Shown: positions 3,672 through 34,541 of the stretch, in pieces
Numbering within the stretch: the first letter of the stretch is position 1
How the letters are laid out: every line of letters starts with the position of its first letter
Assembly: GCA_944390015.1 (NCBI GenBank)
Contig: CALXOL010000017.1
Location: 1 to 47,401 of the forward strand
Length of the DNA: 47,401 nucleotides
Source: an uncultured Spirochaetaceae bacterium
GTDB lineage: Bacteria; Spirochaetota; Spirochaetia; Sphaerochaetales; Sphaerochaetaceae
Direction: 5' to 3'
Notes under the pieces: generated by a model
The model's input: the letters and a program-made list of their open reading frames with translations, nothing else
Databases searched by the model: none
Told to the model about the DNA's origin: nothing
Position numbers and translations under genes: made by a program

Positions 3672-3936
3672 AGTAAAAAATAAAGCCTTTCAAGTTTCAT
3701 CCTCGCAAATGCGCAAGGACGAAGCTTAAAAGGCTCCGCGGTTCCACCTTGCTTCCCTTCCCCTGAGGAAAGGACGCTCAATTCTCTTTTAACGCAAGAT
3801 TACGGCAGGATATACTCGCTATCTTTCCACCCTGCAGCTCGGAAGTGGTTTTCGAACCCCTATCTCTAAGCATCTTCCTTCCTAGGACGCTCTCTCAGGA
3901 GAGAATCAAGGCCTACTCGTCTTCGTCATAGCTGTT
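3672..3936 (-). ncRNA. T-box riboswitch controlling thrS
   Basis: The minus strand carries the T-box core AAGGTGGAACCGCGG at 3736-3750. It can fold as antiterminator: GCAAGG pairs with CCTTGC, and CGGAGC pairs with GCTTCG, with UGGA bulged to bind a tRNA ending UCCA. The alternative fold is a long terminator (3682-3735, about 25 paired bases) followed by ATTTTTT (3673-3681), using the same bases. Upstream, Stem I hallmarks are visible: GACGAAGACGAGTAG (K-turn and AGTA) and an AGAGAG bulge. The probable specifier is ACC (Thr; 3847-3849) in a GAAAACCAC context. The T-box and terminator are certain; the specifier assignment is by position, not by a computed fold. Confidence 0.92.
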
Positions 3937-3942
3937 GACTTA

Positions 3943-29150: not shown

Positions 29151-30642
29151 TATGCCGCAAGAAAACCTGACAGGCTCGTCCTGCAGGATGAATGCGGCAA
29201 GACCCTTATGTTCCAAGATGTGAATGGAAACACCATCCGATGAAGAGAAGACGAGCAATCATGCGGACAAGACCTCCTTGGTAAATTGAATTCGAAGAAT
29301 ATGACGGCAGATGCAATCAGTCCTGTTACTTTTTGCTTATTACAATTTAATTGTGTTTTTTTGAAAGAACTTCTTGAAACGTGCTATGTTACATACATGA
29401 GAAGGTCGATAACTGTTTTTCCAAAGCTCACTGATAAGGAAGTCTCCGCTATAGTTGAGACAGGCAAGCAGTATGCGAGGGCCTTCAACATGGCATCAGA
29501 GTGCCTAATCAATAACAGCAGCACATCCAAGAGGTTCCTTCACAATGTCCAGTATGGGAGGATAAAGGATGAATGTCCTTCTCTTCCCACAGGTCTCGTA
29601 CAGTGTGCCCGTGATGTCGCAGTGGAAGCTGTGAAAACATGGAATGTTAAGAGGACGAAGCTTAAGCAGAAACATCCGAAGAAAGCAGAAAGGATGAAAA
29701 GGCCATCGATGAAGGAGAAGTGCACGATGCGCTATGACGTGCGTACTGTCACGCTCAGAGGCAGTCAGCTCACCTTCAGCACCTGTGACAAGAGGATAAA
29801 GACGATAATAACAATCCCTGAGTTCTTTGGAGAGAGATATTCCTCATCAGAGGGCTGGAAGTTTAAAGGAGCGAACATAGGGATAGATAAAAAAAGAAGA
29901 GTGTTCGTCAATCTCATCTACGAATGCCCCGATTACGAGATAGTTGAAAACGATGGGAAGATAGTGGGACTGGACAGGGGTGTCTACAACATCGTTACGA
30001 CCTCTGAGGGAGTCCACTATGGAGCAAAGGATGCAAGGCGGGTGAAGAGGAAATACAATTATGTGCGCTCTGGGCTGCAGGAGAAAGGCACCCGCAGTGC
30101 GAAGAGGAGACTCGTCTCCATCTCGGGCTGCGAGAAGAGGTTTGTCCATGACCAGAACCACTGCATTTCCAAGAAGCTTGCCAATACTGATGATGTATCC
30201 GTATACGTCCTTGAAGACCTGTCATCCATGAACATGCTGAGACTCAAGGGGAAGAGCAACAAGACCATGAGGAAATGGATATCCAACTGGTCGTACTCCG
30301 ACCTTGAGTTCAAGCTTACATACAAATGCCAGAAGAACGGCATAAAAGTTGAGTTCGTCGATGCGCGCTATACTAGCCGGAAATGCTCGGTGTGCAAGAC
30401 GATAGACAAGGCTTCAAGGAATGGAAACAGATACACATGCAGGCATTGCGGCAGCAGTATGCATGCAGACGTAAATGCGGCCATCAACATCCGCGACAAC
30501 TACATCACCCGGGCCCAGAAGTCCGGGCAGGCTGCAGTCAATCAGCCGTATGGATGGGGTGCCAGAGGCAAACCGGAGACGGAACCTCTGGGACAAACGC
30601 TCACGTCCAAGCCTTCAGGCTCGTCCTGAAGGTCGTTGACTT
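29150..30642 (+). mobile_element. IS605/IS1341-type element with solitary TnpB
   Basis: The ends share a hairpin with the same loop. Left: CCTGACAGG-CTCGT-CCTGCAGG (29166-29187), nested in a wider GCCGCA/TGCGGC pair (29154-29198). Right: CCTTCAGG-CTCGT-CCTGAAGG (30612-30632), overlapping the tnpB stop. Subterminal palindromes of this kind mark IS200/IS605 ends. No tnpA (Y1 transposase) is present. Exact termini are not determined; the left lies near 29150, the right near 30640. The DUF4143 fragment abuts the left end. Confidence 0.75.
29397..30629 (+). CDS. tnpB: RNA-guided nuclease TnpB (IS605 OrfB)
   Basis: 410 residues from the ATG at 29397; the frame extends 37 codons upstream without a convincing start. 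RuvC-like catalytic residues are intact: D193 in GLDRG, E273 in VLEDLSSMN, D358 in HADVNAAINIRDN. A four-cysteine zinc finger lies at C330, C333, C348 and C351. This family cuts DNA guided by an omega RNA made from the element's right end. The gene is full length and should be functional, though its transposase partner is absent. The stop codon lies inside the right-end hairpin, so the guide would begin just past 30640. Confidence 0.93.
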   Translation: MRRSITVFPKLTDKEVSAIVETGKQYARAFNMASECLINNSSTSKRFLHNVQYGRIKDECPSLPTGLVQCARDVAVEAVKTWNVKRTKLKQKHPKKAERMKRPSMKEKCTMRYDVRTVTLRGSQLTFSTCDKRIKTIITIPEFFGERYSSSEGWKFKGANIGIDKKRRVFVNLIYECPDYEIVENDGKIVGLDRGVYNIVTTSEGVHYGAKDARRVKRKYNYVRSGLQEKGTRSAKRRLVSISGCEKRFVHDQNHCISKKLANTDDVSVYVLEDLSSMNMLRLKGKSNKTMRKWISNWSYSDLEFKLTYKCQKNGIKVEFVDARYTSRKCSVCKTIDKASRNGNRYTCRHCGSSMHADVNAAINIRDNYITRAQKSGQAAVNQPYGWGARGKPETEPLGQTLTSKPSGSS

Positions 30643-31509: not shown

Positions 31510-32492
31510 TTAATTAATTGCTGTCAGCGAGAACGCAGATGCGAATTCACTACCGAATTCATCAAGTATCTTATCTTCAACCTGGAGTGCAATGCGCCTC
31601 GTAGCCTGTGCTATCGAACGGTGCCCTTCCCTTCCAGAATAAACTCCGGAAAGAAGTGTTTTTCTCTCATCCCTGTCATACACGTCGATGAAAATATCAT
31701 AATCGACATAGGCCATACCACGTCTGGGAGAGGGAGAAGGATAGGTTTCAACACTTCCTTTTATCAGATAGCGGGAATCATCGGATATTGCAATTCCATA
31801 CATCTCAAGCAATCTGGAGATACTGGTCTCAAGGCTGCTCTGGACATCGCTGTCAATCTCAATTGCGAGAGTGAATACGCCTCTCAACTGAGATACAAGA
31901 TTATTTATCTCATCCAGCGTGACATAATCCCTCAACAATGCGGAAAGCTCCGGTGAGAGTATTCTCAAAACAGCCAGGTCAGACTCAAGTCGCTTGCCAT
32001 CCTCCAAAAGAGAGGTCGCTTCGGAAAAAGCGGAGACTTCACCAATGTTGCTCTCAATCCTCTCCATACTTGATGAAATTGATCTTGAAAGGCTTCTTGC
32101 CTCCGCATAGTAGTATGCAGATGCCTCAGCCTTATCCATGACAGCAAGAACATAATGCAGACCATCTTCCTCAACATGCTCTCTGAAGGTAACCCCCGCA
32201 AGATTGTTCATACTAACGGACAATTTTGAGTCTGACTGGTATAATGAAGAGCTCGATAAGGTATCATCTGTCACACTGATCTCAGTCAAACTTTCTACCC
32301 CTACTCCAAAGAAAGAGGCAATTGAGGAGACGGCATCCGACTCTGCCTCACTCTGGGTTTTTCCAAATCCTGATGCGCGACATACTGATTACTTGGATAA
32401 TCAATATAAGGATTGGCAACCCATTCCGGCATCGCTTCAAATGCCGGAACAGTTACAAGTAAAGCAACCAGAAAATAAACTATCTTGCGCAT
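31510..32492 (-). pseudogene. LPP20-like lipoprotein/secreted protein, frameshifted
   Basis: The 5' part gives a signal sequence and MPEWVANPYIDYPSNQYVA. The frame then shifts near 32374-32380: adding one base to GTCGCGCATCAGG restores ASGFGKTQSEAESDAVSSIA, the conserved LPP20 core. The downstream 259-residue frame is clean to its stop (with the repeated Ser/Glu-rich helices and FTLAIEIDSDVQSSLE). Without correction the protein stops after 63 residues. LPP20 proteins are outer-surface lipoproteins. The start overlaps the COG3014 gene end by 13 bases. Confidence 0.8.
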
Positions 32493-33866
32493 GATGCAAA
32501 TACGACATTCAGATTTCTATCTGAGACTTCCACACAATTGAATGTCTTTACCACGTCTCCTGATGCAGTATGGAATGTCATGGTAAAATCATATACTCCT
32601 GGATCGAGTGTCAAACCACCAACACAGACAGTATCAGGGAGGAACCTTGCCATCCTTATATCTGGAATCTCAGTCTCATTAACAGCAGCAAGTGCCGCTT
32701 CCCTTGCCGCCTCCGCTGCTTCTACAGCCACATCATATGCTTTGTCCGCAGCCGCTTCAGCCAAACCACGTACGAAATCATTCTGTCCCTGGACTGCCTT
32801 CTTCGCCTCATCCCTTGCCTGAACGGCAAGCTTGATCGCCTCATCATAAGCGGTATCAGCTGTTACCTTTGTCGCCGTCATCTTAGTCATGCCGCGGTAA
32901 TAGCTTCCTAGATATTTAGAAGCTGCATCCATAGCGACATTCGCTCTTGCGGCATCACTGACATCTTCAAGAGTTGAAAGCGTTGTAGTCTCGCCATTTG
33001 AACATGTTATATCGACGCTGAAAACCGAAGAGCCTTCATATTCCGGGATATATGGCCAGGAAACAAGGTGTCTGATAGCCCCTGTCTGTGCCATCGCAGA
33101 TGCCGCTTCCTTATCAGCAATAAGCCCGTTAAAAGCGATGAAGTTAACCCTTGCTTTCCCCTGAGGATATATGAAATCCTATTCAGATACGGCTACAGAT
33201 CCAGATTCAACAAGAGCATCATAATCAATCGAAGCATTTCCCTCATCTTTTAGGGCGGCATACATTAGCATGCTCAGATATCTGGAGAAGGAAGACTCCG
33301 TATAGTCAGAGACCTCAGGAATGGAGAAATACTGATACGGATTAGGAGTCAAAGCGAGAACCAGTTCCTCTATCCAGGAAGACTGAGCCTCAGGATTCAA
33401 TGCAAAATCCCTTGCAATGACATTTGCCCTGCGAATTTCAACCATGGCGCCTTCCAGATCACCAAGAGCATAATAGCTTAAAGCCTTTACCCCCCTTTAT
33501 GTAGAGATCCTCATAATTCGCACCAGAGTATGCTTTTACATTATCATTGGCAATAAGGCCGGCAGCTCCTTCGGAGATGCTTGTAATGCGATTATTCTCA
33601 ATCACAGTCTCGGCAGCCGTAAGAGCGTCTATCGCATTCTCATAATCTCCGTTATAGAACGACAACATGCCATAATCGAGATTGTATACCGACTCATCAT
33701 TATATGACTCTTTAGCAGATGCAAGCGCCGCCAATGCCGCTGCAGTATCATCCTTGATGAGTGCGCTCTTGATTGCATCCTCTTCCTTCTCGCTAGGTGA
33801 AGTTGTAGCACATGAAGAGAGAAACAGCAGAGGAATAAGGCAAAGAACTATTAACAGTTTTTTCAC
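32480..33866 (-). pseudogene. COG3014-family lipoprotein gene, interrupted by a poly-G frameshift and an in-frame stop
   Basis: About 462 codons if whole, the normal size. A lipoprotein signal peptide (LFLSSCATT) and TPR-like helices (YGMLSFYNGDYENAIDALTA) precede NYEDLYIK. There a run of six G (33490-33495) shifts the frame: with five G it reads KGVKALSYYALGDLEGAMVE, exactly the family core ALGDLEGALVEIRRAN; with six it stops after GFKLLCSW. Further on a TAG (33179-33181) interrupts the correct frame between VAVSE and DFIYPQGKARVNFIAFNGL, which continues to the end. Two lesions suggest decay, or sequencing error; the G-tract one is also reversible in principle. Confidence 0.85.
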
Positions 33867-33881: not shown

Positions 33882-34484
33882 TTACCATCTAACTGAAGCT
33901 TCTGTAACTTCTTTGCTTATCTCACTGTTCTCCCCAGACCACACAAGGCGTCCGGTCTCAACATCGGTCAGCTGAGCATTTACATAGAAAGTACGGACCT
34001 CATGGCGTCCACTCTTCTGGACAATCGTGCGAACCGTACCCTGTAAAAGAAGATCTGGAGCACTCTCGTTACCGATGCTTGCACTCTCATCTGGATTTGC
34101 ATAATCAAGACCATAGTCCTGCTCAGCATGAAGATCATCGAGGAAACTCCTGTCAGCGACGAAATCCGCAAGTCCGCTATTGAATATAGCATTCTGCATG
34201 CTTGATGTGACTATCGAAGTGTCGATGTGCTCGTCACTTTCGTTTCTGAACGAACCGACCCTGATCAAAGGCCTACCTTCAATACTCTGTGCATATTCCT
34301 TATATCTTGCGGAATAGAACATATCGTCCAGAAGGGAAGTACACACAATGTCAACATCCCTTTCATTCCAGAATCCTGAAAGCTCCCTGGCCGTGCCAGT
34401 TGCAACTCTGTTAACAGATGTCGCACACGAAGTCATAACTAAAACGAGAACTGCTATGACAATGTAAAATAGTTTGTTTTTCAT
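33882..34484 (-). CDS. LpoB-like lipoprotein (penicillin-binding-protein activator family)
   Basis: 200 residues. A lipoprotein signal with lipobox VMTSC is followed by NRVATGTARELSGFWNERDV, a C-S-L region, RPLIRVGSFRNESDEHIDT and DLLLQGTVRTIVQKSGRHEV, the pattern of the LpoB/CsgG-like fold. LpoB activates PBP1B in E. coli; relatives in other phyla are surface lipoproteins of unknown role. The gene is intact. AGGGG nine bases upstream of ATG is the ribosome site. It heads the three-gene operon whose promoter spacer holds the G10 run. Confidence 0.85.
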   Translation of the reverse strand: MKNKLFYIVIAVLVLVMTSCATSVNRVATGTARELSGFWNERDVDIVCTSLLDDMFYSARYKEYAQSIEGRPLIRVGSFRNESDEHIDTSIVTSSMQNAIFNSGLADFVADRSFLDDLHAEQDYGLDYANPDESASIGNESAPDLLLQGTVRTIVQKSGRHEVRTFYVNAQLTDVETGRLVWSGENSEISKEVTEASVRW

Positions 34485-34508
34485 CTCTATAAGCCCCTAT
34501 TTTTTGTC

Positions 34509-34541
34509 AAAATACCCCCCCCCCTCGACCAAATTCGTCAA
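34509..34541 (-). promoter_or_regulatory. lipoprotein operon promoter with G10 tract in the spacer
   Basis: On the minus strand, TTGACG (34536-34541) is the -35 and TATTTT (34509-34514) the -10. The 21-base spacer is AATTTGGTCGA plus ten G (34515-34524). With six G the spacer would be the optimal 17. A short leader and the AGGGG ribosome site lie between the -10 and the LpoB-like start, so the geometry fits a real promoter. The run is of a length that varies by slippage. Confidence 0.65.

Follow-up and report, generated by a model that had tools for sequence, protein, structure and literature searches.

A ten-G run within a promoter spacer of an uncultured, gut-type member of the Spirochaetales (2.19 Mb, 34 contigs) raises the question of whether the length of this tract switches the lipoprotein gene that follows it. 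The locus lies in a stretch of 47,401 nucleotides, hereafter the window, which corresponds to one whole contig of the host genome. On the minus strand of the window, TTGACG is followed by 11 bases, ten G and TATTTT, and an LpoB-family gene begins 24 bases further on. The features of the locus are arranged as follows:

34536..34541, minus strand: -35 hexamer TTGACG, read from the sequence; a hexamer common to the genus-wide class described below.
34525..34535, minus strand: fixed part of the spacer, AATTTGGTCGA, 11 nt (class mode 9-10).
34515..34524, minus strand: ten-G tract, the proposed slippage site (class tract lengths 8-12, mode 9).
34509..34514, minus strand: -10 hexamer TATTTT, read from the sequence and directly adjoining the tract.
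34485..34508, minus strand: leader, with the ribosome-binding site AGGGG at 34498-34494 and an in-frame stop TAG at 34499-34497.
33882..34484, minus strand: LpoB-family lipoprotein gene (PF13036), 200 aa, intact; orthologues 66-79% identical.
32480..33866, minus strand: second operon gene, broken; a lipoprotein of about 440-470 aa in relatives.
31510..32492, minus strand: third operon gene, broken; an exported protein of about 325 aa in relatives.

The original prediction, that TTGACG and TATTTT stand 21 bases apart with a single ten-G tract between them, is confirmed on the minus strand (34541-34509), and its arithmetic is likewise correct, as a tract of six G would bring the 21-base spacer to 17. 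A poly-G between the -35 and -10 boxes, the defining trait of spacer promoters of the tp0126/porA type, is thus present at the window locus. TATTTT agrees with the general consensus at 4/6 positions only. A coding tract was considered and ruled out, because an in-frame TAG lies after the tract and 15 nt before the ATG, and the LpoB open frame reaches only 4 codons upstream of that ATG. A search of the locus revealed no terminator at the tract. Similarly, Rfam returned no match there, its only match in the window being a T-box leader elsewhere (3712-3938, RF00230, 100.5 bits), found here in a spirochaete.

The first gene of the operon matches PF13036 (LpoB) above the gathering score (87.5 bits, E 1e-24), and its product carries a lipoprotein signal with the Cys. 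The second gene is interrupted by a frameshift at the G6 run 33490-33495 and by a stop codon (33179-33181), remaining as frames 33459-33866 and 32480-33445, and the third has, in the assembly, a frameshift near 32352-32376; both are intact in relatives. The locus had been described as a lipoprotein operon, which holds for gene 1 and has to be qualified for genes 2 and 3, broken as they are in the assembly. In E. coli, LpoB faces the periplasm. Of the further description of the products as surface lipoproteins, the lipoprotein part therefore stands for gene 1 and the surface part is doubtful, so that evasion of immunity or phages is not an obvious benefit of switching this gene. A TnpB-like gene (Cas12f1-like TNB domain) lies near the end of the operon, at 29286-30629 of the window.

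The genus was searched with the pattern TTGAC-N(0-15)-G8-N(0-10)-TANNNT and, as a control, with the same pattern reversed. About 290 matches (a table sum in which a few sites are counted twice) were found in 38/48 genomes, and none with the reversed control. In 130 of the 136 listed sites TA adjoins the tract, though up to 10 bases were allowed between them, and 101 of the 136 have 9-10 bases before the tract. The G count in these sites is 8 in 22, 9 in 79, 10 in 28, 11 in 4 and 12 in 3, and the -10 consensus reads TA-G-N-(C/A)-T; the fixed part frequently has ACC as its last bases. With 6-7 G, the layout is seldom seen (19 matches), and the modal spacer of the class is 19, not 17. Beyond the genus, the layout occurs in 46/139 genomes of the order and in 92/395 genomes and 25/133 genera of the class, against 2 control matches; a family (f19) of some 50 genomes, most of them small, gave no match in the class-wide search. 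Genomes assembled as a single contig carry the layout too, and up to about 16-20 sites are found per genome. On the whole, it is very likely that spirochaetes possess a class of phase-variable spacer promoters. As a side observation, a promoter-like site with a poly-G spacer was found in 18 viral contigs (L214-L231).

The targets of these promoters are strongly biased. Lipoprotein genes, called from their signal by a fixed rule, follow 89/102 canonical sites (about 87%) versus 9/123 background frames (7%), and several of the remaining 13 targets are also lipoproteins by eye. The ATG mostly lies 25-37 nt after the -10 box of the canonical sites. The protein bodies are diverse, with 96 proteins falling into 55 clusters and few Pfam matches, including the GLUG motif and a pectate-lyase-like adhesive domain. 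Lipoproteins also stand behind many poly-G spacer sites in genomes of other families (f24, g79).

Tract length differs even between sites of one genome that share identical hexamers and fixed parts (G8/G9, G8/G10, G8/G11 and G9/G12). Likewise, among near-identical promoter pairs (at least 86% over 122 nt flanks), all from other members of the class, as the window promoter is single-copy, the G count differs in 9/11. Since the bounds of a search pattern can bias a correlation, the relation between fixed part and tract was assessed in a search that let 0-30 bases precede the tract. There, the total spacer measures 15-21 in 89/93 sites, and the variance of fixed part plus G count is 4.5, versus 9.1 if the two were independent; 0/20,000 permutations gave a value as low, a result that is optimistic given the relatedness of sites in one genome and clade. 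Across the class, the sum keeps to about 16-19 despite variation in both parts, and the clade means compensate each other (fixed part plus G count 9.9+9.0, 4.6+13.1 and 7.1+8.7). In the genus list alone, the correlation between the two parts is nil (-0.03), the effect being visible across clades. A near-complete genome of another family (G432; L234, L246-L251) combines tracts of G12-G17 with very short fixed parts and keeps its spacers at 17-21. Judging from these comparisons, total spacer length is the constrained quantity across the class, and a steady total built from varying parts is what selection on the distance between the -35 and -10 boxes predicts.

In the window, the ten-G tract is the sole run of at least 8 G/C. 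Across the host genome, G runs of exactly 7, 8, 9, 10 and 11 or more number 6, 2, 9, 6 and 0, a bimodal distribution. Runs of six occur at about 13 per 161 kb, and extrapolation from an approximately 5-fold fall per added base gives about 36, 7, 1.4 and 0.3 expected runs of 7, 8, 9 and 10. Runs of 9-10 are strongly over-represented, as their counts exceed the extrapolated 1.4 and 0.3, and runs of 7-8 are depleted. The other G9-10 tracts of the host lie mostly inside genes or at gene starts, many of these genes having envelope functions: they hit three acyltransferase-3 proteins, a sugar transferase, a Wzi-like protein and an interrupted lipoprotein frame. This excess, together with the envelope genes concerned, points to slippage tracts being maintained in the host, which likely keeps them as contingency loci. 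The window tract is the only one in this genome with the TTGAC...TANNNT layout, and a random position would show TTGAC 5-13 nt ahead of a pretend tract, with TANNNT directly behind it, at a probability of 1.6e-4.

Some of the other host tracts deserve a description in their own right. The gene for the Wzi-like outer-membrane protein is divided into two frames that part exactly at a G10 (L083 4057-4066; G000 C2:53756-53765), likely a coding switch in its off state. Three acyltransferase-3 genes have G9-10 tracts (L085 4020-4028 and 7428-7437, L090 372-380), two of the tracts lying within the frame and the third shortly ahead of what remains of it, which likely represent phase-variable envelope modification. 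A probable lipoprotein gene has a G10 in its first codons (L091 4033-4042; G000 C10:76832-76841) and, at the assembled length, a stop right past the tract. Finally, a G9 lies two bases past a perfect TTGACA (L093 4010-4018; G000 C13:72009-72017), upstream of a BspA-type leucine-rich-repeat lipoprotein and with no good -10 directly after the tract.

The LpoB orthologues shed light on the origin of the tract. In the nearest one (79% identity), TTGACA-N18-TAGGCT occupies the corresponding place, with TTGACA 50 nt upstream of the ATG, and a remoter one (66% identity) has TTGACA-N18-TACAAT; neither contains a tract. Upstream of LpoB in 24 relatives, no promoter spacer holds a G tract comparable to that of the window, and 2 of these regions have the N18 promoter. 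As promoters stand at the corresponding place without a tract, both window boxes are probably genuine, and the tract is probably a lineage-specific replacement of the spacer, gained at the LpoB locus.

These findings allow us to propose a model in which replication slippage would add or remove G and thereby change the distance between the -35 and -10 boxes, with an RNA polymerase optimum near 17, probably 16-18. Promoters with short tracts would be active and those with longer ones weak or silent; with its spacer of 21, above the optimum of about 17, the assembled G10 allele is predicted to be silent or weak. For the class, a switch of this kind is backed by hundreds of like promoters with no reversed counterpart, lipoprotein targets, variable G counts and a conserved total spacer. 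The original idea of a slippery spacer tuning a lipoprotein promoter hence finds strong support at the class level; for the window locus itself, we infer from sequence both the slippage within a population and its effect on transcription. Several points count against the model: the class mode of 19, the 4/6 consensus match of TATTTT, a higher-scoring promoter-like pair upstream, the lack of a tract at the nearest LpoB orthologues, and the broken genes 2 and 3, which may mark a decaying operon. The window promoter is probably a peripheral member of the class defined by TTGACA, fixed bases, G8-17 and TANNNT, and its tract likely works as the phase-variable spacer of the LpoB promoter.

The most serious rival to this phase-variable spacer is that the operon is being lost, the promoter having drifted to a long G run and been locked in the off state as genes 2 and 3 degenerate, in which case the tract would be a scar. 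The three lesions in these genes make operon decay a reading to be reckoned with, and the spacer of 21 and the presence of just one class member in the host genome (G000) fit it as well. However, LpoB itself is intact, and G9-10 tracts are in excess genome-wide, many of them in genes with envelope functions; on this evidence we regard the loss of the operon as unlikely.

Alternatively, the tract could belong to the transcribed leader of an upstream promoter, where the G count would act, if at all, via RNA structure or translation. In this regard, an upstream TTGATA-N18-TTTAAT scores 10/12 at spacing 18, above the TATTTT pair by consensus, and its -10 finishes 119 nt ahead of the ATG. A perfect TATAAT is also present 89 nt upstream of that ATG, and folding of the leader is modestly better than that of shuffled sequences (z -2.3). 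Such upstream pairs are, however, expected 1.5 times per 401 bases by chance in AT-rich intergenic DNA under the rules used. Moreover, in the class, fixed boxes flank the tract and their total spacing is conserved, and the orthologue promoter stands at the corresponding place, which renders a leader function quite improbable.

Less probable still, indeed hard to favor, is that the tract and its flanks form the binding site of a regulator, its length being incidental. The frequent ACC at the end of the fixed part would suit a recognition site, and some of the poly-G promoters in T. pallidum are targets of a CRP homologue (PMC7864442), but the fixed part varies among clades while the total spacing is kept. 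Lastly, a chance run or an assembly artefact is scarcely credible and largely refuted: the G/C-run count of the window (3 overlapping matches versus a shuffle mean of 0.6), like a lone G10 in a 47-kb stretch, is no more than mildly unusual on its own, but the genome-wide run lengths are bimodal, the genus-wide search gave no reversed matches and single-contig genomes have the layout too.

Placing the phase-variable spacer among known systems, the parallel initially drawn with Neisseria is valid insofar as porA of N. meningitidis has a poly-G in its -35/-10 spacer with an optimum of 17 (PMC7864442); porA is, however, a single porin gene in an unrelated phylum, and a closer precedent is found in T. 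pallidum. There, tp0126, which encodes an OmpW homologue, has a poly-G between the -35 and -10 boxes and is transcribed best at a spacing of 17 (PMC7864442). It shares the poly-G spacer with the window, and both organisms belong to one bacterial class; as far as can be judged from sequence, the window would operate in the same way. The difference is that in T. pallidum a few outer-membrane protein genes are concerned, whereas here the targets are mainly lipoproteins, at up to about 16-20 sites per genome, in uncultured species. The tprE/G/J/L genes of T. pallidum also have a poly-G in the promoter region (PMC7864442), with porin-like targets in contrast to those described here. In tprL, 7-11 G occur within isolates, 9 being the commonest, and a reporter with 8 G exceeds one with 10 G (PMC7864442). 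Unlike in the window, transcription of the tprE/G/J/L genes begins just past the tract, in tprL at the fourth nucleotide after it (PMC7864442). In the open-access literature, we found no phase-variable lpoB, no paper on phase variation in Sphaerochaeta or Sphaerochaetaceae, and none joining spirochaete poly-G spacers with lipoproteins. What appears to be new is the large scale, the targeting of lipoproteins and the application to LpoB, the principle of the mechanism being known from T. pallidum.

Among spirochaetes, the switching of promoters by poly-G tracts has been investigated in the agent of syphilis, where it concerns a few genes for outer-membrane proteins. Our findings suggest that the device is widespread in the class and heaviest in uncultured, non-model spirochaetes, where it varies large sets of lipoproteins. 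The layout supplies a one-line sequence signature for predicting the genes that switch, and the naturally occurring combinations of fixed parts and G counts can reveal the spacing optimum even where no genetic system exists. On balance, we favor the idea that a promoter architecture standard in spirochaetes renders whole repertoires of lipoproteins independently phase-variable, with some 10-20 unrelated lipoprotein genes per genome in many uncultured species each under its own G-tract promoter and here even LpoB under such control. If this is true, a single spirochaete could adopt very many envelope states, and LpoB would represent an activator of peptidoglycan synthesis placed under such a switch.
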